A DNA stretch of 24,013 nucleotides, from positions 1 through 24,013 of the IMG/VR virus record IMGVR_UViG_3300020159_001594. The stretch is one strand, 5' to 3'. Below are positions 96 to 22,900 of this stretch, in pieces. The notes under the pieces are model-generated. The model was not told the DNA's origin. It saw only the letters and a program-made list of their open reading frames with translations, and searched no databases. This stretch comes from a virus. Each line of letters opens with the position of its first letter. Within the stretch, counting starts at the first letter, position 1. A program made the position numbers and the translations under genes.

Positions 96-1541
96 TTAAC
101 TATTTAACTTGACGATAGCTTCAATCATGCCTTCGCCATCTGTATTCTTTGTTTCCAATGCGCGACCAAGCACATTAAATGCTGTGAGTTCAGACTTTTT
201 AGCTGCTCTAGCTAGGCCCATGCCTGCTGATACTAAACGATCACCTTTATCAACACGACCAACAACTCTAATTGGCACGCGACCTTGCATGGCGATCGGA
301 GGATGGGTTACATCATCGCCGGCTAAGCCGTTCATTAAGAACCCTGCACGTGTGCTTATTACTCCAAATACTGTTTCACTTAATTCTTGAATCGCACGTG
401 TAATTTCTTTTACACCACCTAGTTCAACTACAGTTCCCGGTAACATAGGAGCATCTGCTTCAAATCGTTCTGCCAAGTCAGCGTATTGAGCTGTGATCGC
501 TTGACCACGGAATGTTGTTGCCCAAACATTGGCAAATTTAAAGCTGGTTGATCCAATTTCGATCGAATTATTAAGGCTAGGTAATACCTGTGCACCTATT
601 GTTGTTATACCACTTAGTAGTGTAGTTGATGACATGGTAGCGGCACCTGTGGTTGTTAGTGCACCTGTGATCGCCACTGCATTTGAGAATGTAACAGCTC
701 CTGTCGTTCCTACAATACCCACAGCTTTAGTGCTAGCACCACTCTTATTAACAAAAAAGTTGATATCTCTATTGCTAGTGCTATTAGTGTAACTTACATC
801 GCCGGCTGCTGTTATTGCTAAATCAGATCCTACTGACAAACCGCCAACACCAAGAGTGTATGCTGTGGTAGCAGCTTGATCGCTACGTAAGAATTGGCTA
901 GCAGTGATACCTTGCAATGATGCGGCTGTTGTTACTGTACCAGTAAATACCGAATTTGGGATCGCTGTGCTTAGATTAAACCCAGGAACAACATTAGTAA
1001 ATCCGCTAAGTCCGGGATTTGGGGCAAAGGATGCATCTTTACTTAAAATAGCAACTACAGTGCTTTGAACATAAAATTTAACTACTACGTGAGGAGTAGG
1101 AACTGCATCATACATTGTTTCAACAACAGCACCGCTAGTACCACCCGACGTTGTTGTGTATGCTGGACCTACTGGTAACCAGGTTGATCCTGTATAAACA
1201 TTTAATTGAACATTTTGGCTATCATACCATAGATCACCGATGATTGGATTGCTTGGTGATTGATTACCTGCGGCAGAACTAGAAATTGGTTTCCATGAAC
1301 TACCGTTCCAAACTTTCAAAGTACCAGCACTATCATACCATAATTGACCAGTCAATGGTGCCGAAGGTGCGCTAGAATTATTAAAATTTTCTAATAATTT
1401 GATATAATTCTCATTGAGAAAAATACCGTAACCGGCATAATTTTTACCTATTAAGGTTAAACTAGTGGTTGTGCTATTGACTGTTCCGTCTGCTATAGTT
1501 GCTAGTGACGATCCAGCTGTTGTAGTTATTGTATATGACAT
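96..1541 (-). CDS. Tail-fibre-like protein with C-terminal Peptidase_G2/chaperone-like domain
   Basis: This 481-aa protein is a probable tail fibre or short-fibre subunit. Residues about 1-130 form an N-terminal module shared with the upstream 470-aa neighbour: an opening MSYTI, TIADGTVN, TSLTLIG, an ENF segment, then repeated GQLWYDS and GDLWYDS units that each precede a 'W.P' strand. A low-complexity Thr/Ser/Gly/Ala shaft follows. Near residue 325 an IEIGS..FKFANVW motif leads into a C-terminal domain from about 353, starting YADLAERFEAD and containing GTVVELGG, VFGVIST and QGRVPIRVVG. That domain is of the kind found at the ends of phage fibres and resembles the Peptidase_G2/intramolecular chaperone group, which assists trimer folding and may cleave itself; I cannot identify catalytic residues. 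A ribosome-binding site AGGT (1549-1552) and two NATAAATA boxes precede the start. The protein type is clear; the exact fibre position is inferred. Confidence 0.85.
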   Translation of the reverse strand: MSYTITTTAGSSLATIADGTVNSTTTSLTLIGKNYAGYGIFLNENYIKLLENFNNSSAPSAPLTGQLWYDSAGTLKVWNGSSWKPISSSAAGNQSPSNPIIGDLWYDSQNVQLNVYTGSTWLPVGPAYTTTSGGTSGAVVETMYDAVPTPHVVVKFYVQSTVVAILSKDASFAPNPGLSGFTNVVPGFNLSTAIPNSVFTGTVTTAASLQGITASQFLRSDQAATTAYTLGVGGLSVGSDLAITAAGDVSYTNSTSNRDINFFVNKSGASTKAVGIVGTTGAVTFSNAVAITGALTTTGAATMSSTTLLSGITTIGAQVLPSLNNSIEIGSTSFKFANVWATTFRGQAITAQYADLAERFEADAPMLPGTVVELGGVKEITRAIQELSETVFGVISTRAGFLMNGLAGDDVTHPPIAMQGRVPIRVVGRVDKGDRLVSAGMGLARAAKKSELTAFNVLGRALETKNTDGEGMIEAIVKLNS

Positions 1542-4991: not shown

Positions 4992-7900
4992 TTATGTCTC
5001 TGTGTAAATGTCATTTCCGTTTTCGGTATCTATATTTATCGCATCTTCAGTGGTTACTGGACTACTTCCGCTGCCTATAACTATATTACCATAGAACGCT
5101 GGAGAGGCTTTTAAGAACCCAGCGGCTGTAGTTGTTGAACCATTGAACCCTGTACCATCTAAGATAGTGCTAACTCCGTGTGTATACCAAACACAAATAT
5201 TAGATATCAAATTGCCGTAACTGATGCTTGGTATAAGTTGTGTAGCACTAGAATCGATCACAGATACCCCGGCACCATGCACTATAGCTGCGGTTCCTTG
5301 TGTACCTCTACGGATTCGTCCTAGGGTATTTGTTACTAAATCAATGGTCCAATAAGTAATACGTTCTGCATCAATGAATACTACACCTGGTTTATTACGT
5401 ATTATATCTGGTGCAGTTAATGTTGACGCATCGGCTACATATATATTACCATCTGTTAAACCTAAAGTTTGGGTTAATACCGTAGCATTTGCACTGCCAA
5501 TACGTAAATAACTAGGTTCATTGATCATGTTATCAAAAATTCTAAAGCCTAAACTTGGTGTGACTCCACCCACTTCATCTATCTTTGTATATACACGCAT
5601 ATCTAATGTATCAAATACTATACCCGGGACTAGTTCTTCAGGAGCATGACTATGATATGTGTCGATATAAGCGCCACCACCTAATATTATATCTTCAGGA
5701 TTTAATCCAAGATATTGTGATTGGTAAACACTATAATGGACAGTATCATACGCTGATTTATCTAATAATACTGACCCGTCTTTGTTGAATTCAACCGGAT
5801 CAAATATCGTATTGTCGAACCCGACTCCATAATTTGGACTGATGCTAAAGTTAGGACCAGTCAATGGTAATCCTGGGAATATTGTGCCGTCAACCAATTG
5901 ATACATGCTGTTGTAAGTAGCTTTAATGGTCATGTTCTGGGTTGGCAATGTTACATTTGCAGATAATTTTATCTGTGTGCAGACTGTGGTAACATCATCA
6001 AGAACTATGGCTACATTTGGTTTAATCGCCGTAATATAACCAGCTGTAACCCCACTTCCACTGATATACATACCAAGCGTTATGAAGTCTGCGGGGAACA
6101 CATATATAGTCTTAGAGTCAATTGCGGCATTGGCTGTGTTTAATTCGACCTCAATGACGTCCACCACCGGCATCTTAGCAGTTGGCTTGTAATAAGACAT
6201 GATACGATCGTTGGCATTAGAAAAACTATTAGCTGCATAAATTGTGTAATCAGCGTAGATAAAATTGTTAGCAGTAGTTGTGTTACTCTTAACTTTATAT
6301 CCAACGCCATCATAGGCAACGATGGTATTTGCTGTATAACTAGTATTTGCTGACCAAGGTAAAACAGTAGTACCATATGATACTCTATCAAATTTTAAAG
6401 TGCTATCAAATGTTCTAACCTGTTCGTTATTTAACATTGCATAAGCTGTTGCTGGTCTGCCACCAAAACTAATCGTTTGATTTATAAAGGCGCCAATATT
6501 ACCAGTGCTCATAGTAATTTTTAAATTACCCAAATCAATTGAAGTAATATAACTATCAGCATCAAACACAGCATTAGCAGTCATGCCAATCATTAACCCA
6601 TTAATGGTATTTACAGAGAACACATAGCCTGTCGATATCGCTGTTCCCACCACAGTAACATTAGATGTTATCCCACCATTTATAATCACAGTCGGTGTTA
6701 GATAATAACCACTGCCCGACGTTAAGAGATCAATTCTAGCAAGGCCTCCAGTGATACTATTGATAGTTGCTGAAGCTGTGGCATATATATTTGTTCCGCC
6801 ACCTAAAATTGTAATAGTTGGAGCAGATATATATCCAACTCCGGGATTTGTTATAACTATGCTATCTACAAAGAAGTTTCTATTTTTATACCAATTTTTA
6901 TAATCAATATTAATTAATGATCCGGTGCTGGTCAGATATCCAGTGGCCCATAATTGTTGATCTTTGGATATTAGTTCACCGCTAGGGCTGCGGAATATTT
7001 TAGTATCTGGATCGTAGTATGGTGCTAGATCAAAGTCAGTGATATCTCCACCGAACGTATCATCACCATTATAGTTTGTTAGATATTCACGTATTTTTGT
7101 AACATAGGGTTTAATCTCTTCTATATAATTCTCATAGTAGGTGATATTATCTTTGATATAATTAGCAGGTTGTGTTAATGCTCTTAGATAGTGAGTAATA
7201 CTTACAAAACTAGTTTTGAAAATCCAATCAACATATTTTTGTTCAGTGAACAAATAGTTAACCATGACAAAGAATAAACTATTAAATTCACCTTGAAGTT
7301 CATTTATGAATATATCTTTCTTCAATGCTTCGATAATATATCGAGTTTCTATGGTTGGATTTTGATCAAATCTACTAGTGTCAAATCCTTGATTCCAGAA
7401 TCCAATACCATTATTAGCAAAATCCCAAATTGAACTCTTTAACTGTATCGTTCCGTTCTGTATTCCGACCACCTGGAATTCTAAATTAATATTAACTGTA
7501 ATTAAATTCCACCCGCCCAGATCACTGGTACTAACACGCACTAAAATTTCTTCACCGACAGCTACAGGAAGTTTCTTTGCGTCTACTAATGTGTCTACTA
7601 CATAATCAAGTTTAGTATTTGGGCCAAATCCATCAGCATACCAATCTACATATTCCCAGAATAGACTTGTTTTGTAACTTTGTATTTTAGTAATCTCCCA
7701 AGTCTTATCAATGGCTAATTCATATAATACCCAAAGATTATCTTGTCTAGAATCCATGTTAACTAATACTCGATATCCTGTAGCCAATGGCGTTGTATCA
7801 ATATATTCTAAGTCTACTTCAGTGTCAATCTTAAGATCATATTCATTGAGTTTTAAACTAGGTGCAGCTTCTTCAGCCTGCAGGGTGTTCAGACTATATT

Positions 7901-10900
7901 GTCTTGCTATAGGTTTTTTAATAAGAACACTATTAACATACGTTACTAAATCACTTAGAGCTCTTAGACGATCAATAAATATGCTTTGTCTTGGGCGAGT
8001 ATTAATTCCGTATCTATCTGCCACACTTAGACTAGGGTCCGGAACTACGCGACCTATCTGATCAATGCCTGATAAACTATCTATTAATTTATTACTAATT
8101 TTCTCAGAGATTAAGCTAAACGGATTTGCTTTCTGTAATAATTCATACTCACTATGTATTACATTCTTATCTTTATTGATATCGTAGTCAATATGTAATA
8201 CCGTGGTCTTTGCTGATAGATATTTTGCTACATTATAAACTATGATAGCATTGTTACGTGTCACCGCGGCATACGCAATATCCTGACTCTTAGGATTGGA
8301 AATATAATCAGCTATTGTCTGAATAGGTAAATTACGTTTAGCATCATTGACCGGCACAGTGGTTTTATTAGTTACCCAGAAATAATATAAACTGCCAACA
8401 ATATTAGTGATTGGATCAACACGAACAATTTCAACGTAGTGAGTATTATTAGGGTATTTAGGTATACCATCATATTTTCCACTGATTACATATTCGCTAG
8501 GTAATACAGTTGATTCAACCCATTCACAAACTTCAATTACTGATCCTGGGAATAATCGTCCCCAATTGATACTACGGTATGTTAATGTATCTTGTTCATA
8601 GTCAATAAATCTAACTTTGTCTAGATTCCACCAAACTTGATTTATCTGATTTTCTCCCCAGTAGTATTCAGAATTAGAATTAATTCCACGATTATAAACT
8701 GCTGGGTCATACTCTGTTTTATAAGTAATGTCCTGATCAGCCTGACCTAGTATTACTCCTTTAGCTGGATCAATAAACTCTAAATTACTTTGTATTTTAT
8801 TATTAACATTATCGTATAGATATAGTCTACTAATTGATCCAATATCAACTTTTGGTTGTTGATAGCGAATTAATTTCCATCCGCGAGTCATAGTTGGGTT
8901 TCTAAATATATATACGCTACCTGCTTTAGTTTTTGTGGTGCTATCACTTGGAGCCGATATTATAACGTCTGATCCAATGATGTCTATGGCTGCCCCAAAT
9001 CTATCACCTGGGTTTAAATCGCCGCCTATTTGTTTTAAGAAGTCTCCGGTATTCAACTGTTGAGCAAAACTATATCGTCCAGGATCTTCTACAGCGTTGC
9101 GTGGGTCATCATATAATTCGTAAATGTAAACACTACCACTTCCTGATATTTTATCAAAGAATGCTGTGGTTCTTTGATCTAATATAGTTGATCCAATATC
9201 AAATGTAGCATAAGATTTTGTTGTTCCTCGCTCACTACCAATGACCAACATGTAAGCATTTTGTGCTAGAACAACTTTATTGCCAAAATATTCGCCACTG
9301 GCATTGAATGGATTAACAATAATCTGCATGTAGGCAAATACTATCAACCCAGCGTCAGCATATACACCTTCACTGCCTGCGGTATTTGTTCCAGTTAAAA
9401 CACGTAATAGATTTTTAGCTACGGTCTTGTTGGTATTCAATCTTAAAGTATTGTTTTCATTTACTGCCGAGATACCTAGCAATTCAGCGTCGTTGATATC
9501 TTTGATTAGGCTGTCTAAGCTGGCCATTGGATTAACGCTGGTATAGGTTGTTGCTACATTTGCATTGCCAGTCACTGTGATATCACCAGATCCAAATGTA
9601 AATGAGTATATATTAATAGCTGTTGGGTATACACTGCCGCCAGTTGTTTCGTTGTTAGCTTTCCATGTAACATTAACATTATTTGGTGATGTTGTAAATG
9701 TTCCAGTTATAGGTCTCACATTTACGGTAGTGGTGCTAACTGTTGTTTCAATTACCTGCACCGTTGCATTGCCTTGTGAAATAATATCACCAAGACTCAA
9801 TGAAATACTACTGTTAAATGTTACTTTTCTGTGATAATCACTTACAACTATCGAGTTAGTGTTTTCCACGTCATTAACAACAATAACATTGGCACCCGAC
9901 ACAGTTTGAGTGATGTAGTTGCCTGCGTTGGCAGTAATATTAGCACCTTTTGTCAACGTTAATATATAATTTGACTCTTGAGGCATCATTCTGCCAGAAA
10001 CAATAATTTCAAAGTTATCTAAACGAATACTATCACCAGGCATGAATACCGGATTTACGGTATAGCCATTGTTAGTACCATATAGTCGACCTCTGTTGTG
10101 GAATTTCCATACAGCACCTGAATTATATGTTGGACCATTATCATAATATGGTGCTCCAATATAAATTGCGCAGTTGTTACTACAGATAGTTAAGTCAGTT
10201 CCGAATGCCGCATTACTTTGTATTGCGCCTAGACCACCAGTTAAACTGTCAATCCCAGTTAATTTCTCTAATAGATTAAACTGATTAGTTTCAATATAAA
10301 TTACCTTACCAGCTGGCGGCGGATTAGTAAATCTGATCGCATACGAATCAGTAGATGATGATGTAGTTGGATATATACCGATGTTTGCTATCTGTGTTGG
10401 GTAAACTCCAATGTTTGATGATGTGCTAGGATACACACCAATGTTTCCTGTTAAGTTTACTGTAACATTAGCATCAATATTATCAATCTTGATGTTTGCT
10501 GATGAATCAAATGTATATGCTGTAATATAAGATACCGACAATGTGCTGCTAAAATTATTACCAGAAATAACCGTAGCATTAGCATAGTTGCCACTGCCTA
10601 AATATTCACTGATAGTCTGCCCAACATTGGCTGTGATGACATTACTGAAATATACCTGCACACCAAGATTCGCAACCATGGTTCCACCAACATTAATAAC
10701 ATTGGCTGGAGGAGTAAAGATATTGCCAGTTAACACAAACACATTAGCATCTTTATAAGTTACTGTGACGGCATTTGGAACAACATTTGCCCAAATTGGA
10801 TAGATACCATATACTATGTTAGCTGACGTTGTAGGGTAGACATTTGCATTAACGTTGGCGGTTAAATTGCCAACAGTTACATTGCCTGAAGCTATAGTAA

Positions 10901-13900
10901 ACACGCTAGAACTATTATAAATTATAGTTACTGTGTTACCATAACTATTTGCTACTACCGTTGCGTTTGCATTTGAAATAGATTGTCTAATATATTGTCC
11001 AACATTAGCAGTAATATTACCATTGAAGTAAATTTGTTTATAGCTAGATGGTAATGTAGCAAGTGTGCCGTTGACTGTAACGTTGCCAGAACCTGATGTA
11101 AAATTAGTGCTGGTTATAAAATCAACTTCAACTAAAGTATTAGACCCTGTAACTGATGTTACTTTGGTAACTACAGCATTTGCACCTGTGGTAACCTGTG
11201 TAATAGTGTCACCGATGGTAACTAGATTAACTGAATTGATATTACCAGAAAATACGATAGTTCCTGGTCTAGATATAACATTGGCATTGGCAATATTGTT
11301 ACCATTGGTTACCTGCGTGATGAACTGACCAACGTTAGCAGTAACGTTGCTGGTAAAATACACAGTGCGTTGTGCAGGTGTATATTTGTCAAGGAACGTT
11401 CCGCCAATACTAATATTAGATAATGAAGTTAATACAAATGCATTGGCAATATTAGCATATGATATTGTTACAGTATTTCCCACACTGTTAGCAACCACCA
11501 CAGCATTTGAAGTAACGGAGCCTACAGTCTGTGTGATGTATTCTCCAACATTGGCTACAATATTACTACTAAAATAAACTTGTTTACGAACAGGGCTATA
11601 TAGTTCTGTCACCGTTCCATTAACACTGATATTACCTGATCCTAAAGTTATTCTGTCAGATAGATATCGTAGAACAACTGAATTTACATTAGTTCCGCCT
11701 ACTACAACTTCTAAATTAGCACCTGTTGATGGCTGTGTTATATGATCCCCTACGCTAGTAGTAAGATTTCCACTGAGATATAGCGTTACATATGGAACTA
11801 CCTCATAGTCATTGACTTCAACATTTTCAACAGTTACTCTGTGTGCAAGATCTATATTTCCTGATGTGATATATTCTGTTGCTCCGGTTGTTATATTAGC
11901 TTCAATGACACGGTCATAAACATAAACAGCGCCAGCACCTTGTAGCCATGTATCATTAACAAATACGTTAGCACCTGGTGCCCCTACAGCCAACTGTGCT
12001 CCATCAAGACTTGAATCTAATGCATAACCAAATTGAGTTCCTGTATCGCCTTGAAGGGTGGCGTGTAAAGTATAACGAGGTTGTTGATCAATTTGGTAAA
12101 CCCCTTCTGCTATATTTGCAGTGAATACTACTTTATTGTTTACTACGGTATAATCTAGATCAGGAATAAATGTTCGGGCACCTACATCTGCAAAAGATCC
12201 AACTATGCCCAACATCGAAGCATTATTAGCTATCTGAGGAGTAAATGATAACGTGATGTTGCTGGTTATTGATGCATAATATGGTTCAGCAGTAACATAG
12301 CTACCAGTGTTGGCCGTTACTCCAGTTACACTGTCATATTTGTAGACCCATTTACCGGCGGTAATATTAGTTCTGTTGTTTACTAAAATGTTGGCTGAAC
12401 TTATGCTGGTTTCTCTTACTATCGTAACTGCACCTGTTTCAGGCAATGACAATGTATCACCGATGTTAGCACGAATACTTGAACTAATTGGCATGCGAAT
12501 ATTATCAATAACAAATTCAGTGTGTGATTTTTTAATTACATGATTGTTTAAACCGTAGACATATACTCGATCATTGCCAGGGGCACCCACATATAACCAT
12601 GTGCCGTGCTGGTCAAACGCAATCCTGCTGCCAAATCTATCATTGGTTGCATTAACATTGCCTGACCAAAGAACCTGCGGTTTATTAAATGTTGTGGTTG
12701 CTGGGTCTCTATTATATACATAAACTAATCCTATGTTGCCAAAACTACCTGGCGCACCAACACCCACAATATTAATAGCCTGATCAACACTATAACCAAA
12801 TTCTCTTGTAGTTATTATAGCGTTACCTGCATCAGGTATTAATGATGTACCTTCAATGAATCTACCAAGGGTGTTTTTATCAAATGTATTAACGATACCT
12901 GTGGTTACTTCTATATCTTTACTGTAATAGGGATAGCAATTAGCATAAGGGCTACCTGTTATAGCTAACAATCCATCATAGCTTAGTTTAACGCTGGTAC
13001 CAAATCCAGAAACATTGGCTGAATATTCTGAACTTGCTTTTAATAATGTCTGATCATAATTCCATGGTTGTTGTTTTTCATAAACTTTCCATAGGTTATC
13101 ACCGGTGGTATATGACTGCCCATTGTCAGTCGTAGTTGCGGCGTCATCGTCGATCCAAATCTTGTCTCCAACTTTCCATCCATGCGGTGGATTTAGTAGA
13201 CCGTATACGCGACTGTCTTCCATAAATCGGAAACGCATACTATCTAGTTTATATAATATACCATAACCTGATTCAGTTGTTATTCCATCTAGATTGCCAA
13301 TAGGTCCTAGGTAACTAACAATAACTGTATCAAGACTGACCACAGTGTCAACTTGATAGAATCCGTCAAATTCTACACTAAATCCTTTAATTAAGAAAAC
13401 ATTAGTTTCTGATAATGTATGTGGGTATTCTGATACCCACGTGAGCGTTCCATCGGTATTATTAGTTAATGTTGTTATATGATTATTTGTTTCTGTTACA
13501 CGATACACATTCCAATTACCAGTAAGATCTTTGGCACACCATATGGTGTATCCTCTGCCTATGTCAGCTAACTGTGTATTTAAATTTACATAATCGTTTA
13601 AGTCATAGATGGTTGTTGAGACATCATCAATATTAACATATCCTGCTGTTAATATATCATTATCATAATTGCTGTGTGTATCTCTAATCAGACTGATATT
13701 TCCATTAAATGCATCTGTAGATTTATATAGTTGAGATTTGTTGAATACCGTTAATCCGTCGCCCCTGTTGTTATCGACTTGACTCACAAATTCTGCGATC
13801 GCTGGATTTACTGAAAATGCTTTTTCATCTAAAACAATCTCAATATAAGGATTTGAATCTAGTGCGCCATATTCCCCTGTTCGCACTGCCCACTCTTCAA

Positions 13901-16900
13901 ATAAATTAATATCGCTAGATACATTATTAAACTCAGCTTTTGTTAATGCGTTTACAGCATTCATCGATCCTTTCTGTTTAATGTATCCTTTATATAACTC
14001 AATCTGTGTAGTTTCACTCAATCCCAGATCACTGAGATATTGTCGAGGTTTAAATCCTATTAGACCGTGGCTATATGATAGCTGATTGTTGTCTTTGATA
14101 ATTCCATAACTATCATAAGAACTCTGACTTCCTACTGCAATGGTACTAAAGTTGCGTAACAGTCCTGTTTTTATCTCATTTGATGATAATTGTCTCCAAT
14201 AGGCAAAATTAAATTCAATTTCAGCAGCAATATTTTGTAGAGCCACGTAGTAGAAATTTTTGTATAATACTAGTTCGCCTTTGAGATAATCTTTACCTGC
14301 TTGCCAACTTTGTATTGTTTTGCTATTGTATATAAATCCTGGGGCAAATAAACTACCGTCCCAGTTGTCGGTTTTTTGTCCAATTAGTTTTAATCGATAT
14401 TGTCTATTACCTAATTCTGGTTTATAGATAACATCATTGAATACTGTAACATTATCAAAAACTAAAACATGCTCATACTGGACTAGGTTTAATTCTACAA
14501 ATGCCAACATAGTAGTATCTTCAAGTAAGGTTACCTTGAACGAACTAGGAGTGCGCATGGTTTTATATCCAGTTTTTCTGACTAGATTAAAGTTTTGATC
14601 GACGACTTTACTTCCTTGCTGACTATCAGTAACTTCGTCAACTATGCTGTTGCTGGTAATGGCACTAATAGAATTTACCACTGGACTTAACACTAAGATA
14701 CTGCCAGTCTTCCAACCTTGTTGTGCCCAAAATAAGAATTCTTTAACTGATAATTTCCAATTTCTTTCTTCTCCAAGATCACTATCTCTGTCATTAAATG
14801 TAAATCCTTGAGATAATAGATATCTTTCGTAACTAATTAAGAAATCCACAATTTGTTGCTTATTTTTAAACTCATAACCATACGGAACTGTTAACTTAAC
14901 ATTTTGATATTCTTTATAAACTACTCCGCTGCTATTCAATACCGTTATCTTATATCCATTTGAATTCGGTACACTAGGAATTATTGTAAAATACGGTTGA
15001 TTAATATTATAACCTTTGACAACATATCCATTGGTGCTCTTTTCAACTATTACAGCACTATATACGATTTTATCAATTGGTGCTGACTTAAACAACAACA
15101 CATTATAATTGTCATCTGGGATCAAGATACTAGCATTGGTGCTAGTTGGACTACTTTGCTCGGCTAATATCTGTAGATATTTTTTATCGCTAAATCCAGC
15201 CAATTTATATGCAAGATTAACTTGATAATTTCTTAGCATAGGAGTTATCATAGTGCCAGGGGCAATCCCTAAACTAATAAGATAATCTGCGATCCAATTT
15301 AAATACCCGCTGGCTCTGTAAATTAATCCTGTGCTGGTATCTCCGTTGAAATTAATATCTGTTTGTTTGACGTGATGATTGTCTAGAGTTAGATATTGAT
15401 TTACTTCGTAATTATATTTTATCCTGTAAGTGTCAACATATTGACCAAAATATCTTGCAGGGGTTGCTAATGCGATTGCTTTTTGTATTGCAAATGGAAA
15501 ATCGCTGCTATTTCTCCAGGCCATTTCAACTGGCCCTAGCTCGCCAATTGCCCATGAGGTTGCGGCACTTTTTGGTGATGTTGCACGAGCTATAACTGCT
15601 GCTGGGCTTAACAAGATACCATTTTCATCAACGGGTATTACTTGGCTAAGGCCAGGGCGCACATATCGAGGATCGATGCCTGGTCCAAGCCCTGCATCTA
15701 AATTAGCCCTTGGACCATTACGTATCAGACCTGCTTCTAGATCGTCCCATAGAAGTTTATTACCGCCGGTGTAAGGACCTGGACCATAGAAACTTTCCCA
15801 CCAATTAGGTATTGCAGTAAAGCCCAACATTTCCCATGGTCGAGTATGTGGATAGAATGTATCATAGAAATATTGGAAACATGCACGCCAACTACCTTGT
15901 AGTTTTTCTCCCGACAATCTATCTACAAATCCTGAATAATTCCAAGTAAATGAATCACTACTTTCAAATGTAGTATTTGTCGAATAGTCAACTTTGTTAT
16001 TGCCAACCCATGTTAAAAATGAGCTAGATAAAATTTTCCATAAGTCCGAATATAAATATGAAGATTTTCTAAATTTACCAGGAATTATTGTATAGATATC
16101 AGGATAGGTTCCGGTGTTTTCTCCCTTAATATTATTGTATATACGTTTTTCTAATTCCAATAGAAAGTTATCTCTGTAGTCATTGAATGCAGGAGTAATA
16201 CTACCGTCATGGCCGCGTATTATATTGATAGGTGTTCTATAAGTATTGTCGCTTACAATTTCAGGAATAAATTTAGCCCAGGTACCTACTTTTGTGGGGG
16301 TCTCTGGGATATAGCAACCATCAGTATTAGCAAATTCTACAATGGTAATACTATCATCAACATTTAATGTAATATTATCAGTGTTAAATGTGATCGCTGG
16401 TCTCGTGGTATCAAAACTATAATCTGATCCGACTATCAATTGGATGTTATTTAAATAAACCAATATAGATTTATTACTTAGGTCTGATATTGAAAATATG
16501 TTTGTAATTTCATAACTACTAATCAATGGATCATATACTGTATAATTAATAGTATTTCTCAATGTTCCGTATGGAACCATGTCGCTATAGAACCACGGAA
16601 ATGAAGTATTTTTATTTTTGTTAATTTCTGTAATTATTTTGTCAACACTAGTTTGAGGATTTGTAGGATCTATGCCCGGTAATGATATGCTGAGCTCTAA
16701 GAATTTATTCTTAAATTTAGTGTATTCTCGTTGAGCGTATTCTAAAGCTGGAATAAAGTTACTTTGTCCGTCTAGCAAGAATAATTCAGCGAGAGGAACA
16801 GGTGCACTATGTTGTAAAATACTACCACCTTGTTGCTTGATTTCAATATCGCGTAAATTATTAGGGCCAAGAATATTTCCAATTAGAGTTGAACTATTCC

Positions 16901-19900
16901 TGCTCATAGTTATAAGATGATTTCTCATCTGGCCAAGGGTGAGTGATGTTAGATCAACATTTTGTGCATTTAAATCTAAATTCAATGGAATCTCATAATA
17001 TCCCATCGCACTAATTTGATCACTGTAAATTTCTATATCAATGACATCGCCTTGAGTTAATGTTGTTAATAATGTTAGTTTTTTAGTTGCTGTCGTAAAA
17101 GTCCATTGGTTACTAGTCAAGAAAGTTTTATTTTGATAAACTTTTAAATAAGGAATTGAATCAACTTGATTTATAGTAACAATCTCGTTGGGGGCGATAT
17201 CTAACATAAACGGATTGTTGCCGCCGTCAAATGTATAAGATATTAGTTGATATTGTTTACTATATTCATTAACAGTGCGCCAGGTATTTCTACTAGCTAG
17301 ATTGTCTCTATCAGTTATATTCTTTAAGAAACCAACGCTGATATTTTTTGTGATGAATGTTTGATCTATAACATAGGTAAAAGTATCTGTATTAAAATAA
17401 TTTTTAAATAATATGTCACCTTGACTAGTAAAACTTCTATAGGTTAATGGAAACCCTAATATTTTATCATCAACTCCTAAAGTATTTTGTTCATACCCAA
17501 ACAATTTTGTTCCAACAAAATTACTTCGTGGATAAACAGTGAGGTCACTTAAACTTTTACCATCATTATCATGCACATCAAATAATGGATCTTGTTGTAA
17601 CGAAGTTTTTTGTTGGCCTTCATTCCAATTGGTTCCATCATACCACCAAGCACTGCCTTTATAGTTTCCTAATTTAACTACTACACTGTCATATACTAGA
17701 CTTTCACCGTCGTCCGCAACATTGAGTGAGATGTGGTATGGGCCTGTTGGGAGTCCATTTGAATCAACTTGGTACTGAACAAGATTTAAAATATAGATTT
17801 TATTTTTAACTAAAGGATCTTCAGCCGCCCCAAAAATTACTCGCATACCATCAAACATTTCAACACCAAGAGCATAAGAACCAATGAACGAAACTGTAAG
17901 GGTAGTTCCAAGTTCAATCGATTTCCAAAAAACTTTTGCAGGCTCTGCGCCACTAATGCTTCCCTGAGGCACAAACGTTATATTTGAATCGCTGATTGTT
18001 TTACCTTGTAGATCTCTTAGAGGATTTGTTACATCGGTATCTAAAATATCAATGGCGTTTTTTCCAATACGACCATAATTAAATAATTGTAAATCACCCT
18101 CAAATTGAACAATAGGACGTTGGGCACGTAGCTGCTGGTCAAGAACTAATTGTTCATTATTATAAATTGCTGTATTTTTGATTACGTCAACATGGAACCA
18201 ACGATTGTTTCTTGACCATGCATTGAGATCTTTAGCATCTCTCTTGATAGTAATATACTCTGGAAATAATGTGTCAGCATATACATCATAGACTAGTGTC
18301 CCACTAGATATTCCCACCCCAGTAACTTCTAATCCTTTAGTTATAGAGTTAGTTGAATCTAAAGTGGTAATTTTTGTCGCGCCCGCAGTGATCTCAATAT
18401 TGTTTGTAATTACAACATTTCCAAAAGTAATATTAGATCCGGCTGGAATCACTGCATTGGTTGGGGTATCTAAGACAATTTGACGTATAGGATAGTTTAC
18501 TGCTAATTCGTCATTATAAGGTTCTGGTCTTACTAATAATTCTATATCTACTAGATTAATACTATCGCCTACATTTTCTACATAGTATTCTCGATCTCGA
18601 TAAGATGTTGGAGTAACACCAACATCAAATTTGATTTTTAATCCGCTGGTAAATTCGACACCATTAGGGCTGGTGTAGGTAAGTTGTCCTAAAATATCAT
18701 TGTCAACATCGATTACAAAATTAGTCTGATCTACTATTTTAATAATAGAATAGATATCTGGTCGTAAACCATCTTGTATGTATAAAGTATCTTGTAAGCT
18801 GGTCAGCAATGGAATTTGATGGAAGAAGCCATCAAATTCTTTATACCATTCTGTATTGGCAAATTTTATCCCATATCTAATATAAACTTTTTCATCTAAT
18901 GTTACATCTTGCACCCAGAATAGATTAAGTAGTTTATCAGCAATGCCGCCGGGGCGTGTTACATCAAGTAACTGAATTTGCCAAATTCCAAAACGTTTAT
19001 CATTAGGAACTACACTATCTTTAGGGTAACCAAGTGCGACTGTTGTGTTTGTTCCACCTACTGTCCATACCTCTTCACCAAGATTAATGCTTTGATTTTG
19101 CCCTTGGAATATCGTGGTCTTGCCATTGAGTTGCCCGATGATGCCTTGATATTGTGGAAAATTTATTAAGAAATCACTTAGATATTGATTTTGTAAATCA
19201 CTGAATTTAATCGGAGTCGCATAGTCTACATTGTAGACTGTGGTCATTTTTATAAATCTGTCTTGCGCATCTTTTTGTGGAACATTAAATACCACGTCGC
19301 CCACAGTGGCGCCATTATTTTCTACACCTAGCACATTTCTTGAACTGATCGATGGTGTTGCTGTCAATACCCCATCTGTTCCTAGTTCACTTTGTATCCA
19401 AAATTCACTAGATTGATCTACAGTAAAAGTGTATGACCCGCCACGTGCTAATACTATTGTATTATTTTTTGCACCTCCTGTGGTAAAGTCATATCTTGCT
19501 GAACTAACATTGCGTGCTACTGTATAGGTCTTCGTTAACTCTATACCAGACGTGTTGACTTGAACTGAGGTTGGACCATTGGGTAACCAATAATACTGAC
19601 CAAAATTTATTAACTTGTCAAATGATATCTTTGGATCAAAACTATAATACTCACTAGCAAATAATCTGCTGTGATCTTCTGTCAATCCACCATAATATTT
19701 TATTTTATTAAGTAAATCTATATAACTGGAAAAGAAAGTAATTTCACCGCTAGCATCTTTAATAATTGTGCTAGGCTCAAGTTGATAATATTGTCGATCT
19801 AATGAATCTTCAATTATATAACTATCAGAATTTTTATATGTGGGAGCAAACTTACGCCCGATGTATCCATAAAGATTTTTTAACGCAGGTTCAGAAATTA

Positions 19901-19988
19901 ACTGATCAATTGTTGCTGAAAGAAATTTTTCGTTGACATCGGTGCGAAACACACCAGGTAACAACTCTATACTTTTTCTAATAGCCAT
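4992..19988 (-). CDS. Giant 4998-aa virion protein with interrupted FG-GAP beta-propeller
   Basis: One intact frame encodes 4998 residues. It begins 1 base past the gp6 stop, with GGTGA 9 bases upstream as ribosome-binding site. Visible parts in order: a conserved N-terminus (1-145; SATIDQLISEP, LYGYIGRKFAPTY); a cupredoxin-like sandwich (about 177-237; TIVLARGGSYTFTV, FWIQ, GVENNGATVGDV) without a visible copper site; a block with RPWEMLGF (1383) and PNWWESFYGPGPYT; WKLSVKEFLFWAQQGW (1744); seven FG-GAP motifs with Phe at 2329, 2397, 2452, 2653, 3262, 3568 and 3664; long repeats inserted between blades; a helical part near 4150-4290; paired GxGY repeats (about 4374-4440); and a C-terminal block with SHAPEELVPG (4780) and RIRRGTQGT (4891). 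From memory, several of these blocks occur in large structural proteins of marine T4-like phages. No signal peptide or membrane segment is evident. Its place after gp25-gp6 matches T4 gp7, but I see no gp7 similarity. A baseplate-linked adhesion scaffold is my inference. Confidence 0.9.
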   Translation of the reverse strand: MAIRKSIELLPGVFRTDVNEKFLSATIDQLISEPALKNLYGYIGRKFAPTYKNSDSYIIEDSLDRQYYQLEPSTIIKDASGEITFFSSYIDLLNKIKYYGGLTEDHSRLFASEYYSFDPKISFDKLINFGQYYWLPNGPTSVQVNTSGIELTKTYTVARNVSSARYDFTTGGAKNNTIVLARGGSYTFTVDQSSEFWIQSELGTDGVLTATPSISSRNVLGVENNGATVGDVVFNVPQKDAQDRFIKMTTVYNVDYATPIKFSDLQNQYLSDFLINFPQYQGIIGQLNGKTTIFQGQNQSINLGEEVWTVGGTNTTVALGYPKDSVVPNDKRFGIWQIQLLDVTRPGGIADKLLNLFWVQDVTLDEKVYIRYGIKFANTEWYKEFDGFFHQIPLLTSLQDTLYIQDGLRPDIYSIIKIVDQTNFVIDVDNDILGQLTYTSPNGVEFTSGLKIKFDVGVTPTSYRDREYYVENVGDSINLVDIELLVRPEPYNDELAVNYPIRQIVLDTPTNAVIPAGSNITFGNVVITNNIEITAGATKITTLDSTNSITKGLEVTGVGISSGTLVYDVYADTLFPEYITIKRDAKDLNAWSRNNRWFHVDVIKNTAIYNNEQLVLDQQLRAQRPIVQFEGDLQLFNYGRIGKNAIDILDTDVTNPLRDLQGKTISDSNITFVPQGSISGAEPAKVFWKSIELGTTLTVSFIGSYALGVEMFDGMRVIFGAAEDPLVKNKIYILNLVQYQVDSNGLPTGPYHISLNVADDGESLVYDSVVVKLGNYKGSAWWYDGTNWNEGQQKTSLQQDPLFDVHDNDGKSLSDLTVYPRSNFVGTKLFGYEQNTLGVDDKILGFPLTYRSFTSQGDILFKNYFNTDTFTYVIDQTFITKNISVGFLKNITDRDNLASRNTWRTVNEYSKQYQLISYTFDGGNNPFMLDIAPNEIVTINQVDSIPYLKVYQNKTFLTSNQWTFTTATKKLTLLTTLTQGDVIDIEIYSDQISAMGYYEIPLNLDLNAQNVDLTSLTLGQMRNHLITMSRNSSTLIGNILGPNNLRDIEIKQQGGSILQHSAPVPLAELFLLDGQSNFIPALEYAQREYTKFKNKFLELSISLPGIDPTNPQTSVDKIITEINKNKNTSFPWFYSDMVPYGTLRNTINYTVYDPLISSYEITNIFSISDLSNKSILVYLNNIQLIVGSDYSFDTTRPAITFNTDNITLNVDDSITIVEFANTDGCYIPETPTKVGTWAKFIPEIVSDNTYRTPINIIRGHDGSITPAFNDYRDNFLLELEKRIYNNIKGENTGTYPDIYTIIPGKFRKSSYLYSDLWKILSSSFLTWVGNNKVDYSTNTTFESSDSFTWNYSGFVDRLSGEKLQGSWRACFQYFYDTFYPHTRPWEMLGFTAIPNWWESFYGPGPYTGGNKLLWDDLEAGLIRNGPRANLDAGLGPGIDPRYVRPGLSQVIPVDENGILLSPAAVIARATSPKSAATSWAIGELGPVEMAWRNSSDFPFAIQKAIALATPARYFGQYVDTYRIKYNYEVNQYLTLDNHHVKQTDINFNGDTSTGLIYRASGYLNWIADYLISLGIAPGTMITPMLRNYQVNLAYKLAGFSDKKYLQILAEQSSPTSTNASILIPDDNYNVLLFKSAPIDKIVYSAVIVEKSTNGYVVKGYNINQPYFTIIPSVPNSNGYKITVLNSSGVVYKEYQNVKLTVPYGYEFKNKQQIVDFLISYERYLLSQGFTFNDRDSDLGEERNWKLSVKEFLFWAQQGWKTGSILVLSPVVNSISAITSNSIVDEVTDSQQGSKVVDQNFNLVRKTGYKTMRTPSSFKVTLLEDTTMLAFVELNLVQYEHVLVFDNVTVFNDVIYKPELGNRQYRLKLIGQKTDNWDGSLFAPGFIYNSKTIQSWQAGKDYLKGELVLYKNFYYVALQNIAAEIEFNFAYWRQLSSNEIKTGLLRNFSTIAVGSQSSYDSYGIIKDNNQLSYSHGLIGFKPRQYLSDLGLSETTQIELYKGYIKQKGSMNAVNALTKAEFNNVSSDINLFEEWAVRTGEYGALDSNPYIEIVLDEKAFSVNPAIAEFVSQVDNNRGDGLTVFNKSQLYKSTDAFNGNISLIRDTHSNYDNDILTAGYVNIDDVSTTIYDLNDYVNLNTQLADIGRGYTIWCAKDLTGNWNVYRVTETNNHITTLTNNTDGTLTWVSEYPHTLSETNVFLIKGFSVEFDGFYQVDTVVSLDTVIVSYLGPIGNLDGITTESGYGILYKLDSMRFRFMEDSRVYGLLNPPHGWKVGDKIWIDDDAATTTDNGQSYTTGDNLWKVYEKQQPWNYDQTLLKASSEYSANVSGFGTSVKLSYDGLLAITGSPYANCYPYYSKDIEVTTGIVNTFDKNTLGRFIEGTSLIPDAGNAIITTREFGYSVDQAINIVGVGAPGSFGNIGLVYVYNRDPATTTFNKPQVLWSGNVNATNDRFGSRIAFDQHGTWLYVGAPGNDRVYVYGLNNHVIKKSHTEFVIDNIRMPISSSIRANIGDTLSLPETGAVTIVRETSISSANILVNNRTNITAGKWVYKYDSVTGVTANTGSYVTAEPYYASITSNITLSFTPQIANNASMLGIVGSFADVGARTFIPDLDYTVVNNKVVFTANIAEGVYQIDQQPRYTLHATLQGDTGTQFGYALDSSLDGAQLAVGAPGANVFVNDTWLQGAGAVYVYDRVIEANITTGATEYITSGNIDLAHRVTVENVEVNDYEVVPYVTLYLSGNLTTSVGDHITQPSTGANLEVVVGGTNVNSVVLRYLSDRITLGSGNISVNGTVTELYSPVRKQVYFSSNIVANVGEYITQTVGSVTSNAVVVANSVGNTVTISYANIANAFVLTSLSNISIGGTFLDKYTPAQRTVYFTSNVTANVGQFITQVTNGNNIANANVISRPGTIVFSGNINSVNLVTIGDTITQVTTGANAVVTKVTSVTGSNTLVEVDFITSTNFTSGSGNVTVNGTLATLPSSYKQIYFNGNITANVGQYIRQSISNANATVVANSYGNTVTIIYNSSSVFTIASGNVTVGNLTANVNANVYPTTSANIVYGIYPIWANVVPNAVTVTYKDANVFVLTGNIFTPPANVINVGGTMVANLGVQVYFSNVITANVGQTISEYLGSGNYANATVISGNNFSSTLSVSYITAYTFDSSANIKIDNIDANVTVNLTGNIGVYPSTSSNIGVYPTQIANIGIYPTTSSSTDSYAIRFTNPPPAGKVIYIETNQFNLLEKLTGIDSLTGGLGAIQSNAAFGTDLTICSNNCAIYIGAPYYDNGPTYNSGAVWKFHNRGRLYGTNNGYTVNPVFMPGDSIRLDNFEIIVSGRMMPQESNYILTLTKGANITANAGNYITQTVSGANVIVVNDVENTNSIVVSDYHRKVTFNSSISLSLGDIISQGNATVQVIETTVSTTTVNVRPITGTFTTSPNNVNVTWKANNETTGGSVYPTAINIYSFTFGSGDITVTGNANVATTYTSVNPMASLDSLIKDINDAELLGISAVNENNTLRLNTNKTVAKNLLRVLTGTNTAGSEGVYADAGLIVFAYMQIIVNPFNASGEYFGNKVVLAQNAYMLVIGSERGTTKSYATFDIGSTILDQRTTAFFDKISGSGSVYIYELYDDPRNAVEDPGRYSFAQQLNTGDFLKQIGGDLNPGDRFGAAIDIIGSDVIISAPSDSTTKTKAGSVYIFRNPTMTRGWKLIRYQQPKVDIGSISRLYLYDNVNNKIQSNLEFIDPAKGVILGQADQDITYKTEYDPAVYNRGINSNSEYYWGENQINQVWWNLDKVRFIDYEQDTLTYRSINWGRLFPGSVIEVCEWVESTVLPSEYVISGKYDGIPKYPNNTHYVEIVRVDPITNIVGSLYYFWVTNKTTVPVNDAKRNLPIQTIADYISNPKSQDIAYAAVTRNNAIIVYNVAKYLSAKTTVLHIDYDINKDKNVIHSEYELLQKANPFSLISEKISNKLIDSLSGIDQIGRVVPDPSLSVADRYGINTRPRQSIFIDRLRALSDLVTYVNSVLIKKPIARQYSLNTLQAEEAAPSLKLNEYDLKIDTEVDLEYIDTTPLATGYRVLVNMDSRQDNLWVLYELAIDKTWEITKIQSYKTSLFWEYVDWYADGFGPNTKLDYVVDTLVDAKKLPVAVGEEILVRVSTSDLGGWNLITVNINLEFQVVGIQNGTIQLKSSIWDFANNGIGFWNQGFDTSRFDQNPTIETRYIIEALKKDIFINELQGEFNSLFFVMVNYLFTEQKYVDWIFKTSFVSITHYLRALTQPANYIKDNITYYENYIEEIKPYVTKIREYLTNYNGDDTFGGDITDFDLAPYYDPDTKIFRSPSGELISKDQQLWATGYLTSTGSLINIDYKNWYKNRNFFVDSIVITNPGVGYISAPTITILGGGTNIYATASATINSITGGLARIDLLTSGSGYYLTPTVIINGGITSNVTVVGTAISTGYVFSVNTINGLMIGMTANAVFDADSYITSIDLGNLKITMSTGNIGAFINQTISFGGRPATAYAMLNNEQVRTFDSTLKFDRVSYGTTVLPWSANTSYTANTIVAYDGVGYKVKSNTTTANNFIYADYTIYAANSFSNANDRIMSYYKPTAKMPVVDVIEVELNTANAAIDSKTIYVFPADFITLGMYISGSGVTAGYITAIKPNVAIVLDDVTTVCTQIKLSANVTLPTQNMTIKATYNSMYQLVDGTIFPGLPLTGPNFSISPNYGVGFDNTIFDPVEFNKDGSVLLDKSAYDTVHYSVYQSQYLGLNPEDIILGGGAYIDTYHSHAPEELVPGIVFDTLDMRVYTKIDEVGGVTPSLGFRIFDNMINEPSYLRIGSANATVLTQTLGLTDGNIYVADASTLTAPDIIRNKPGVVFIDAERITYWTIDLVTNTLGRIRRGTQGTAAIVHGAGVSVIDSSATQLIPSISYGNLISNICVWYTHGVSTILDGTGFNGSTTTAAGFLKASPAFYGNIVIGSGSSPVTTEDAINIDTENGNDIYTET
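5033..5040 (-). promoter_or_regulatory. Late promoter-like box GATAAATA within the 3' end of the giant gene
   Basis: GATAAATA on the minus strand lies in the last 20 codons of the 4998-aa gene, 43 bases before the ATG of the 431-aa fibre-like gene. It is the only minus-strand copy I find inside the 15-kb gene, and it sits exactly where a promoter for the next gene would be. A start about 6 bases past the box would give a leader near 38 bases. It could raise fibre expression independently of the long upstream transcript. Confidence 0.55.
6671..6870 (-). repeat. Pair of GxGY beta-repeats in the giant protein
   Basis: Residues about 4374-4440 contain two copies of a roughly 32-residue unit: NPGVGYISAPTITILGGG and, after an ATASATI strand, SGSGYYLTPTVIINGG. 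The pattern 'GxGY...PT(V/I)xIxGG' is a beta-repeat that I recall from marine phage structural proteins. The copies are diverged at the DNA level. A role as a rigid linker or knob is inferred. Confidence 0.75.
9555..9963 (-). repeat. Second cluster of ANxGxxI repeats, between propeller blades 5 and 6
   Basis: Two further copies of the long repeat occur in the insertion between the fifth and sixth FG-GAP motifs. One starts at about 9963 (LTLTKGANITANAGNYITQ) and one at about 9827 (KVTFNSSISLSLGDIISQG), the second trailing into FGSGDITVTGN near 9570. They are more diverged than the main cluster but keep the strand pattern and the 'xxGxxIxQ' signature. A single degenerate copy (SIRANIGDTLSLPETGA) lies in the insertion between blades 3 and 4, near 12470. 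Confidence 0.75.
10360..10449 (-). repeat. Three 10-residue NIG(V/I)YPT repeats
   Basis: Three consecutive 30-base units encode NIGVYPSTSS, NIGVYPTQIA and NIGIYPTTSS, with unit starts at about 10369, 10399 and 10429 and partial DNA identity. They end the large insertion before the fifth blade. A related, degraded stretch (ANVYPTTSANIVYGIYPIWANVVP) lies about 130 residues upstream in the protein, so this short repeat has spread separately from the long one. Confidence 0.85.
10440..11789 (-). repeat. Main array of ~70-residue ANVG repeats in the giant protein
   Basis: Six copies of a beta-rich repeat start at about 11789, 11582, 11366, 11261, 11036 and 10661. Unit lengths are about 69, 72, 35 (truncated), 75 and 125 residues (the last with extra material), and about 70 for the final copy. 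Each opens with a 'xVYFxSNITANVGxxITQ' type segment, continues with ANA.V(V)...GNTVTISY and closes with GSGNI(T)VNGT. Copies are diverged in DNA but clearly homologous in protein. Spacings are multiples of 3. The array fills the insertion between FG-GAP motifs 4 and 5 and probably forms a stacked beta-stalk projecting from the propeller (inference). Confidence 0.9.
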
Positions 19989-19989
19989 T

Positions 19990-22900
19990 TTATGCTGTCA
20001 CCGTTTGATTAAGTTGAGCCGCTGTAATCGCTGATATGATTTGCACATTATCCACAGTTGCGGCACTTACAATAATTTCATTATATCCAGCATTAATCTG
20101 TAGTAAACTACCAAATATAGTTGATGCACTAGCCGGAACAATAGTAACACTGGCAATGTTAGGTGCTAATATACTGTGTAGATATGCTGACAGTTCACTG
20201 AAATAAAATGTTTCTCCAAAATCCCAATTTGCAATATCAAAATAACTGTTAATTGCAGAGATCACACTTGTTTTAATATCATTATCACTGACCACTACAT
20301 TAGGATTTTTAACTACTTTGAATGTAGCTTGTAATGCTAGGTCGGCTTTGGCACCAAATATTGGTTTGAATTTTGCTGGATTATAAATGATAGTGTCTGA
20401 AATACTCTTATAGTTTTCTAGTTCATTATAGTCTATCCCCAATATTTCCGGAGTTGGTGCCGATGGCTCAACAACTGTTCCTGTATTATCCTGGACCCAA
20501 GAAATATAATCAGCGGCATAGGTCTTGGTTAATATATACAAGTCAATAACGTTGTTTGGGCTTGGATCAATACGACGATTGTTTGGGCTGTTATGTCGAT
20601 ATTGGAAATAAAGATTTTCTCTACCAACCTTGGCAGTATAAGTCACAGGGGTAGCTAATTTTGTTGTTTCTATTAAATTATATGACGAATCATTGATGAC
20701 AGATAGTTTATAAAACTTATTTGAGCTTGGAATATAGAACAACTGACCATTTTGGTATAAAGTAGCATCAACTTCTGCCGCAGACAATAGGTCATAAGTA
20801 GAAATCACTGAACTGCTAGCGACTGGGGTTTGTATAACAAAATTATCATATCCATAAGTTGCTTCAAAATACACATATTTTCTTTCGGGACTGGTAGCAG
20901 GATCTACAATAAGTTCAAATAATTCAGGATTATCAGGGACTCCGTCAACATTTTCGTCGGGGAATGTAATTAATATCTTATTAGAATTTGCATATCCGTC
21001 CACTTCTGTAATAGATTTATAAATGTACCAAGTGTAATCAAGGGTCAAGGGAGTTGAATCATTGGGTGCCGAATTTACCTTAAGGACTTTGATCTGATCA
21101 TTGATTGTTAATCCTGTTTTTGGATCAAATGTTTTTACTCGATCATCAAAATAGAAATTAGTTTCTTTTACGCTTTCAAAAACATAGTTTAATCCGCGAT
21201 AGTATACTGTATATGTTTGCCCAACGGCTTGAAATCTTATTAACCAACTGCTGTCTAATCCACTTGAACTAGTATTACCCGTATAGCCCAAATCAAAATT
21301 GCCAGTATTTAAATCTCCAGGCAAGATTATCTTCCAGGATGTCGAATCAACATCATATCGTAATCCAAAATCTTCATATGATTGTATATATGACGACATC
21401 GTGTTAACCAATGATGTTGAAAAGTTGACATTGAACACTGGAAAAACCTGAACTGCAATAGCACCAGTTGGAACAATTTGACTTAATGTAATTGGACCAG
21501 ATCCATTGATTAAATTTCCTTGACCACTGTTTGTTCCATCTGCTAAAACTTGTATAACTCTTGCATAGATATAAAACTTATCTCCTGTTTGAATTGGCTC
21601 TCCAGACTGTATTTTATTCTGTGCATCAAAGTAATTGCCGGTGCCTGCAGAAAATTTAACTATTGCATTTTGTTTAATATATTGTTTACTATCACTAACA
21701 TAATTTCCAACTTGTAGTATCTTTCCCGAAGCGTCATAGAAATATCCAGTTAATCCAGTTTGATCTAAACTTTTATTCCATAGTGTGTTTGTTACTGCGG
21801 GTTGATTGTAGGCAGAATAAAAATATTGTAGTATTTCATTTTCAGTAACAATAGGTTTAATTTGATTATTAATTACTCTATATATGTCAACAGCGGTATT
21901 AAAACTAAATCCAAATGTTTTTGTAACCTCATCTTTATATAATCTGCCATCTTGACAGAAAATATTAGTTGACGAATACTTACCAGTGGTATCAATAACA
22001 TCTAAATATCGCGATACGCCCGAACTTGTTCTGTTTACGGCTTTAACTTTTAATACATTACTGAACAATGTATAAGGTAAGATATTATAGTCTTCACCTG
22101 TAACCATACGATTTTGAGTATAATATTGTTGTGGTGCTTTTTGTCTTACGTCATCTAGTGTTTCTCTCGCAGTTGCATTAGTAACGGTATATTGTAGACT
22201 AGCTCTAACAGTTATTGTTTCGATACGGCCCCCAGCACTGGTATAATTAATAGGTATGATAATATTAGACATTTCATCAGGAGTGACTTTGTATGCCTGA
22301 CCATTACTTACTCTGTAATAAAGTCTAAAACGGCCTTGTGGCATATTAGCAAAGGCACCGTCACCAAATATTAATTCAATTCTATCACCTGCCTTGCTAT
22401 TAACCTGATAGATATTTTTATTAGTGCTGGTATTATAGATAATGTTAGTATTGCCTACTGCTGGAACTTGTTGCCACATTGTATCAATGTCACCAGTAGA
22501 ATTAATGCTATATAACCAGATGTCCGAATTATTAATATTATCAACATCTATACCATACACTCGATTTGGTAAACTTTCTTGAAAGTTTAAATCTATTGAC
22601 ACTATCGATCCTTGTTTAAAATACAAGAAGAATCCTGTGTTATTACTGCCGTTACCTAAATTATCATTCCTATAAAGCAGATTGAACGGATTGTTAGGTT
22701 TTGGTGCTGTTTCATAAACGTAGCTTTTTCCAACAGTGGTCGGGCTAACAATTTCAAAATTAGTTTGTGTTCCTTCGATGGAGGTTTTAAATGCGTAGGT
22801 AGCGATTAGGCTAGGTATGAGATTTACCTGATATTCTTCTGTGGTTACTCCGTTGACAATATTTTTATTGTATGGTTTTCCAACAACTTGATTATTATTT

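Follow-up and report, generated by a model that had tools for sequence, protein, structure and literature searches.

The window analyzed here is a 24-kb viral DNA fragment (24,013 nucleotides; IMG/VR record IMGVR_UViG_3300020159_001594), which encodes on its minus strand a giant virion protein, P0001. The middle part of this protein is, with high confidence in the architecture, an integrin-type (FG-GAP) seven-bladed beta-propeller with long insertions in three of its blades. The best overall explanation of the data is that the propeller is an exchangeable module contacting the host surface, and we give this reading a probability of about 0.5.

Seven FG-GAP motifs and the predicted fold

The motifs of P0001 start at residues 2329, 2397, 2452, 2653, 3262, 3568, and 3664, corresponding to positions 13004, 12800, 12635, 12032, 10205, 9287, and 8999 of the window (minus strand), with spacings of 68, 55, 201, 609, 306, and 96 residues. 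The Pfam family FG-GAP_2 matched P0001 taken as a whole (E 1.6e-9), PF14312 scoring 38.2 bits against a curated cut-off of 23. A blade hidden Markov model (HMM) trained without the window recognized six of the seven motifs at 9–44 bits, while the top score among 200 shuffles was 2.7 bits. The seventh motif, blade 6 (FGNKVVL...MLVIGSE), was divergent and was supported by the family alignment and the structural model. The blades were located as follows:

12840–12995, minus strand: blade 1; strands A–D mapped from the model of relative L030
12663–12791, minus strand: blade 2; strands mapped from the L030 model
12051–12626, minus strand: blade 3, including its C-D hairpin insertion; strands mapped from the L030 model
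10260–12020, minus strand: blade 4, including its C-D hairpin insertion; strands mapped from the L030 model
9315–10196, minus strand: blade 5, including its C-D hairpin insertion; the most conserved part of the propeller (74% mean identity); L030 model mapping
9057–9287, minus strand: blade 6, divergent FG-GAP; alignment and model
8862–8987, minus strand: blade 7; WKLIRY at its end is the strand by which the scaffold hairpin exits; Pfam, empty-site alignment, and model mapping

Relatives were gathered by two IMG/VR scans with the propeller and one with the scaffold. FG-GAP_2 was matched in all propeller sequences of the family (55/55), and a motif was present at each of the seven positions in all 50 sequences covering the whole region (window included; the relatives are uncultured). 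An eighth blade was not found in any protein with the iterated blade HMM, and exactly seven were counted in three relatives with a bare propeller. The claim of the sequence-only reading that there are seven and only seven motifs at this place thus holds for the window and its relatives. Among full-length relatives, the variable spacings were mainly 3-4 (116–293 residues), 4-5 (115–190, against 609 in the window), and 5-6 (145–329); spacings 1-2 (52–131) and 6-7 varied less often. Two more distant relatives, L138 and L153, whose giant proteins (~6200 residues) are the largest members, had ~450–630 residues between the first two detected blades. In L006, blade 5 was without its first ~60 residues and the giant open reading frame (ORF) was broken upstream, by an assembly fault or decay. 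Calcium sites in the propeller were considered and rejected, as none of the family's propellers matched the calcium-binding loop DxDxDGxxD.

AlphaFold2 was applied, with the 55-sequence alignment, to relative L030, which carries two repeat-bearing insertions and is ~56% identical to the window. The model (predicted local distance difference test, pLDDT, 84.5; predicted template modelling score, pTM, 0.85; 871 residues) showed seven blades of four strands each, and all five models were consistent (pLDDT 82–84.5). It superseded a weak initial model built from nine sequences (pLDDT 64). A profile search of the PDB returned integrin alpha chains only (alpha-6, E 9.7e-8), plus one marginal match; with the window sequence alone, the PDB search returned nothing. 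In Foldseek searches, integrin alpha chains were the top 32 matches of the first model, and the second model matched mostly integrins, with viral FG-GAP proteins aligned across the whole length. One coherent seven-bladed domain is therefore what the modelling of a relative predicts; the single propeller proposed from the sequence agrees with this model, with the missing eighth blade, and with the three bare seven-motif relatives.

It is very improbable that the seven units fold as separate or partial domains that form no closed propeller. Such a reading can point to the evidence being the strand pattern and scores of a model of L030, and to the low pLDDT of the shallow first model. It is opposed by the pTM of the 871-residue model, which has 28 blade strands, by the bare relatives, where seven motifs are adjacent with nothing long between them, and by the full-length Foldseek matches to viral FG-GAP proteins.

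Insertions in the blade hairpins

The C-D hairpins of blades 1–7 of the window, mapped from the L030 model, were 5, 6, 156, ~530, 252, 13, and 7 residues long. The loop enlargements anticipated from the sequence (roughly 140, 550, and 245 residues) therefore correspond to measured insertions of 156, ~530, and 252 residues, against 5–13 in the other blades. The following elements were delimited:

12078–12545, minus strand: insertion 1, 156 residues, blade 3 C-D hairpin; made up of a single repeat (12360–12485) and a small beta domain (FIPDLDYTV...)
10305–11891, minus strand: insertion 2, about 530 residues, in the C-D hairpin of blade 4; motif spacing 609 against 115–190 in full-length relatives
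10476–11786, minus strand: tandem array of 6–7 copies of a ~60-residue repeat inside insertion 2; repeat HMM
9339–10094, minus strand: insertion 3, 252 residues, blade 5 C-D hairpin; contains the repeat twice (9669–9944)

Since the C-D hairpins hold the insertions, these lie inside blades 3, 4, and 5, and the placement of stalks between blades 3-4, 4-5, and 5-6 has to be corrected. In a canonical propeller, the C-D hairpins are located at the outer edge of the face bearing the A-B and C-D turns. On the model, the arms would leave from the outer edge of that face.

That the two larger insertions consist mainly of a non-FG-GAP repeat was borne out: the repeat HMM found 6–7 copies of the ~60-residue unit in insertion 2 and two in insertion 3, in addition to one in insertion 1. 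The blade-4 arm of the window is an outlier of the family and the only array of its kind found; ~480 of its residues were unique to the window, and the nearest relative, L011, was without 479 alignment columns. Most relatives also carry the repeat in their giant proteins, where it is located in the blade 3 and blade 5 hairpins, in the N- and C-terminal parts, and in some cases close to blade 1. It was not found in cultured homologs, in other proteins of cultured phages, or in other ORFs of the fetched loci.

The copies in the window shared 19–55% identity and were no closer to each other than to copies in other phages. Recent tandem duplication was rejected, because no tandem array was detected at the DNA level and identity within the window was no higher than between phages; judging by these identities, the array is old and diverged at both the DNA and protein levels. 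Two relatives that are 87% identical (L005 and L011) differed by a clean stretch of 82 residues, one arm domain having been gained or lost. The sequence comparisons thereby show that the C-D hairpins of the blades acquire and lose small beta domains, mainly the ~60-residue repeat.

The insertion site in the scaffold

The scaffold alignment had a single break, located at the propeller. The parts bordering it were as follows:

13092–19988, minus strand: scaffold before the insertion site, residues 1–2299, conserved; tblastn to 87 cultured phage records, blastp segments
13044–13088, minus strand: entry strands WKVYEK and NYDQTL, residues 2301–2315, the scaffold side of the propeller-holding hairpin; aligned with the empty sites of Atu_ph07 and L165, model strands
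4992–8861, minus strand: scaffold after the insertion site and C-terminal part, residues 3710–4998; blastp to 6/6 cultured homologs tested, CBM_5_12 match

In the empty site of Atu_ph07, WKVKEF runs straight into DWNTIREETPMVD, while the window reads WKVYEK, the propeller, and then GWKLIRYQQPKVD. A second empty site was found in the uncultured phage L165 (giant-protein residues about 2190–2250), where the sequence from WAVYTY to WDRTRQQSAKVD reads WAVYTYNGATWDRTRQQSAKVD. Three close scaffold kin of L165 (L155, L164, and L168) carried at the same site a bare seven-motif propeller without long insertions. The single break, the empty sites, and the bare propellers at the same point together indicate that the propeller is plugged into a single beta-hairpin of the scaffold (WKVYEK ... 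WKLIRY). The scaffold phylogeny did not support an empty site as ancestral in this clade: L165 nests among phages with bare propellers and has probably lost its own.

No FG-GAP propeller was present at the site in any of the six cultured homologs read (6/6); cultured homologs carry unrelated sequence of about 110 to 1500 residues there. Cultured phage genomes searched with the propeller of the window gave no match, and those searched with the propeller of the shortest relative gave marginal matches only (23 records, E up to 10). When bacterial and archaeal genomes were scanned using the family alignment, no encoded relative was revealed, so that there was no clue to the host. By these alignments, the propeller is shown to be an accessory module: the scaffold occurs without it, and the module comes in bare or decorated forms.

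Other contents of the site were also observed. The giant protein of L143 had ~640 residues there with no detectable FG-GAP blade, and another module may have replaced the propeller. Gene product 140 of Salicola phage SCTP-2 (L014) has in the same socket (residues about 1961–2361) a domain that looks LamG/concanavalin-like by eye, with no Pfam match. Separately, a second giant protein of Sinorhizobium phage Phosso (L100; gene 108) gave weak FG-GAP-like matches at several places.

Exchange between phages and selection

In L050 (10379–12330), most of the propeller shared 97–100% DNA identity with L051, except for two 150-base stretches at 89–94%; identity just outside the propeller was 80–86%. 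In L035 and L053, 84% of blade residues were identical, against 69% in the scaffold and 58% in the following region. The reverse pattern was found in L026 and L062 (blades 57%, scaffold 81%, following region 76%). These departures of propeller identity from that of the flanks show, at the level of sequence, that whole propellers are exchanged between lineages by recombination. Chimeric assembly of the single contig L051 is possible; the other two pairs are independent of it.

The ratio of nonsynonymous to synonymous substitution rates (dN/dS) was low throughout the protein, including the insertions (0.04–0.24 for values that were computable and did not rest on a handful of changes). The blades were under strong purifying selection (mostly below 0.15), and the insertions evolved somewhat faster, yet were still constrained. 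Diversifying selection on the insertions was accordingly rejected. The proposal that the insertions are the variable, receptor-facing parts was not sustained at the residue level: they varied by gain and loss of whole domains, their dN/dS was below 0.25 in every computable pair, and the unit that is swapped is the whole propeller.

These values also bear on the possibility that the propeller and its repeats are a neutral or bulk-adding decoration that has no specific role in binding, is tolerated in a surface loop, and spreads by recombination. The permissive site, with its unrelated inserts of 100 to about 1500 residues in other phages, and the age and divergence of the repeat copies are in keeping with it. 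The strong purifying selection on the blades and the retention of all seven across a deep clade make it improbable.

Genomic context

In this jumbo-myovirus contig, P0001 follows two genes of contractile-tailed phages, gp25 and gp6, in the minus-strand order gp25-like, gp6-like, P0001:

23445–23822, minus strand: gp25-like baseplate wedge protein; phrog_43
19990–23391, minus strand: gp6-like baseplate wedge protein; PHROG_10646 and phrog_219
4992–19988, minus strand: giant virion protein P0001, 4998 residues, directly 3' of the gp6-like gene; ORF, PHROG_10938, homologs in PA5oct, 121Q, Atu_ph07, SCTP-2, and CBB

The protein was assigned to PHROG_10938, a virion structural protein family (profile search, 1145 bits, E 0). 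Its first 2300 residues had tblastn matches in 87 cultured phage records, including PA5oct, Atu_ph07, SCTP-2, 121Q, RaK2, and CBB. The order gp25, gp6, giant protein was common to PA5oct, 121Q, Atu_ph07, Phosso, and CBB, and a giant homolog was located 3' of gp6 in every neighbourhood read where gp6 was annotated. Homologs have been detected in virions: CBB_236 is listed in a virion mass-spectrometry table (PMC5259590), and the PA5oct record carries an ESI-MS/MS (electrospray ionization tandem mass spectrometry) virion note for gp355. The gp25-gp6 neighbours and the mass spectrometry of the homologs support the assignment of P0001 as a baseplate-associated virion protein. It occupies the position of T4 gene 7, directly after gene 6; sequence similarity between T4 gp7 and the P0001 scaffold was not found (hhalign probability 0.3%, E 0.2), and a PDB search with the scaffold profile gave no match. 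Four more genes, a tail-fibre region, lie 3' of P0001. One of them encodes a fibre-like protein (96–1541, minus strand), the last ~140 residues of which match the C-terminal part of several fibre families (phrog_6427, phrog_22593, and phrog_19602).

Possible function

A part that some phages lack, exchange for another, or extend by 500 residues cannot sit in a packed core, and the propeller is therefore inferred to be exposed, projecting from the wedge. From the baseplate wedge, its free face or its arms would touch the host surface (a glycan, a capsule, or a surface-layer protein), possibly in early, reversible adsorption with the arms as spacers. Host contact is suggested because exchange between lineages is typical of host-contact modules; taken alone, this role is tentative, at slightly less than even odds. 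The five-bladed baseplate propeller of the 80alpha receptor-binding protein has been suggested to bind wall glycans (PMC7048315). A more specific proposal is that a one-hairpin baseplate socket in a large clade of uncultured jumbo phages carries a swapped, arm-extended propeller cassette setting which host surface is recognized, that is, a host-range module in the scaffold and not in a fibre; we regard it as unlikely in this full form.

The main rival takes the propeller to be a platform for docking within the virion, the blade edges and hairpin arms of which hold short or long fibres or neighbouring wedges. A precedent is the SU10 propeller, in which blade loops bind the tail needle and short fibres: blade 1 has a dock loop, and loops on blades 4 and 5 bind the needle (PMC9509320). 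Fibre genes directly downstream, purifying selection throughout with blade 5 the most conserved, and fibre sets that differ among phages, so that a dock could be swapped together with its fibre, also fit. However, none of the six cultured homologs examined has the propeller, and these phages have fibres too; moreover, a bare propeller is enough in L155, L164, and L168; docking is possible, though rather unlikely.

Several points weigh against the propeller being an exchangeable host-contact module. No receptor, ligand, or host is known for it. The genes downstream of P0001 resemble separate tail-fibre genes and are possible receptor binders. Purifying selection acts everywhere, the insertions included, unlike in many fast-evolving receptor binders. 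On the structural side, the model covers L030, while the window's own 1410-residue propeller with its 530-residue arm lies outside it, and it bears on ring closure through strand pattern and scores. Many Foldseek alignments had a high root-mean-square deviation (16–19), and template modelling scores against the PDB were modest; both probably reflect register slips of the alignments in a repeat fold.

Comparison with known systems

The closest likeness is to the integrin alpha propeller, in FG-GAP motifs, seven four-stranded blades, the PDB profile match, and the top Foldseek matches. The phage propeller differs in having no DxDxDGxxD loop and in being embedded in a phage structural protein. 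Integrins also have a propeller insertion, the alpha-I domain between blades 2 and 3, which is optional among integrins; the phage insertions are in the C-D hairpins of blades 3–5, on the opposite face.

Podophage nozzles (SU10; T7 gp12) resemble the present case as tail-protein propellers with an inserted stalk of beta domains, the seven-bladed SU10 nozzle having four immunoglobulin-like domains between blades 2 and 3 (PMC9509320). Those proteins form the six-fold nozzle that terminates a short tail, whereas P0001 is a myovirus baseplate protein with other insertion sites, and no sequence link between its propeller and podophage nozzle proteins was found. The suggestion that such an architecture is unknown from a phage baseplate stands in part: a literature search found no FG-GAP or beta-propeller for jumbo-phage baseplates, but the SU10 nozzle is a precedent in a phage tail. 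The receptor-binding protein of Staphylococcus phages 80alpha and phi11 is likewise a baseplate protein with a beta-propeller and suggested glycan binding (PMC7048315); it is five-bladed, trimeric, and a separate protein.

The PHROG_10938 proteins of cultured jumbo phages (PA5oct gp355, 121Q 582, Atu_ph07 gp180, SCTP-2 140, CBB_236) share the scaffold and the place after gp25 and gp6; in the six read, the site is without the FG-GAP propeller. Virus-encoded FG-GAP propellers also occur in Vibrio phage nt-1 ORF127, UFOVP1367_22, cyanophage S-TIM5, and prasinovirus MntV1. A 2024 paper suggests that FG-GAP repeats may have been confirmed in a virus for the first time in a prasinovirus (PMC11467894); FG-GAP proteins are already annotated in phages. 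These are mostly separate proteins, while here the propeller is a module built into a baseplate scaffold.

A label can now be given to the central part of these phages' largest proteins, for which annotation has offered no more than 'virion structural' or 'hypothetical', and the natural series of proteins with no propeller, with a bare one, and with arms allows the role of the propeller to be tested by comparison. The propeller type is also a marker that could be matched to hosts. The fold, phage tail propellers with an inserted stalk (SU10), and FG-GAP proteins in phages are already known; new is their combination here, in which an integrin-head fold would be plugged, as an exchangeable part, into a baseplate protein of a contractile tail.

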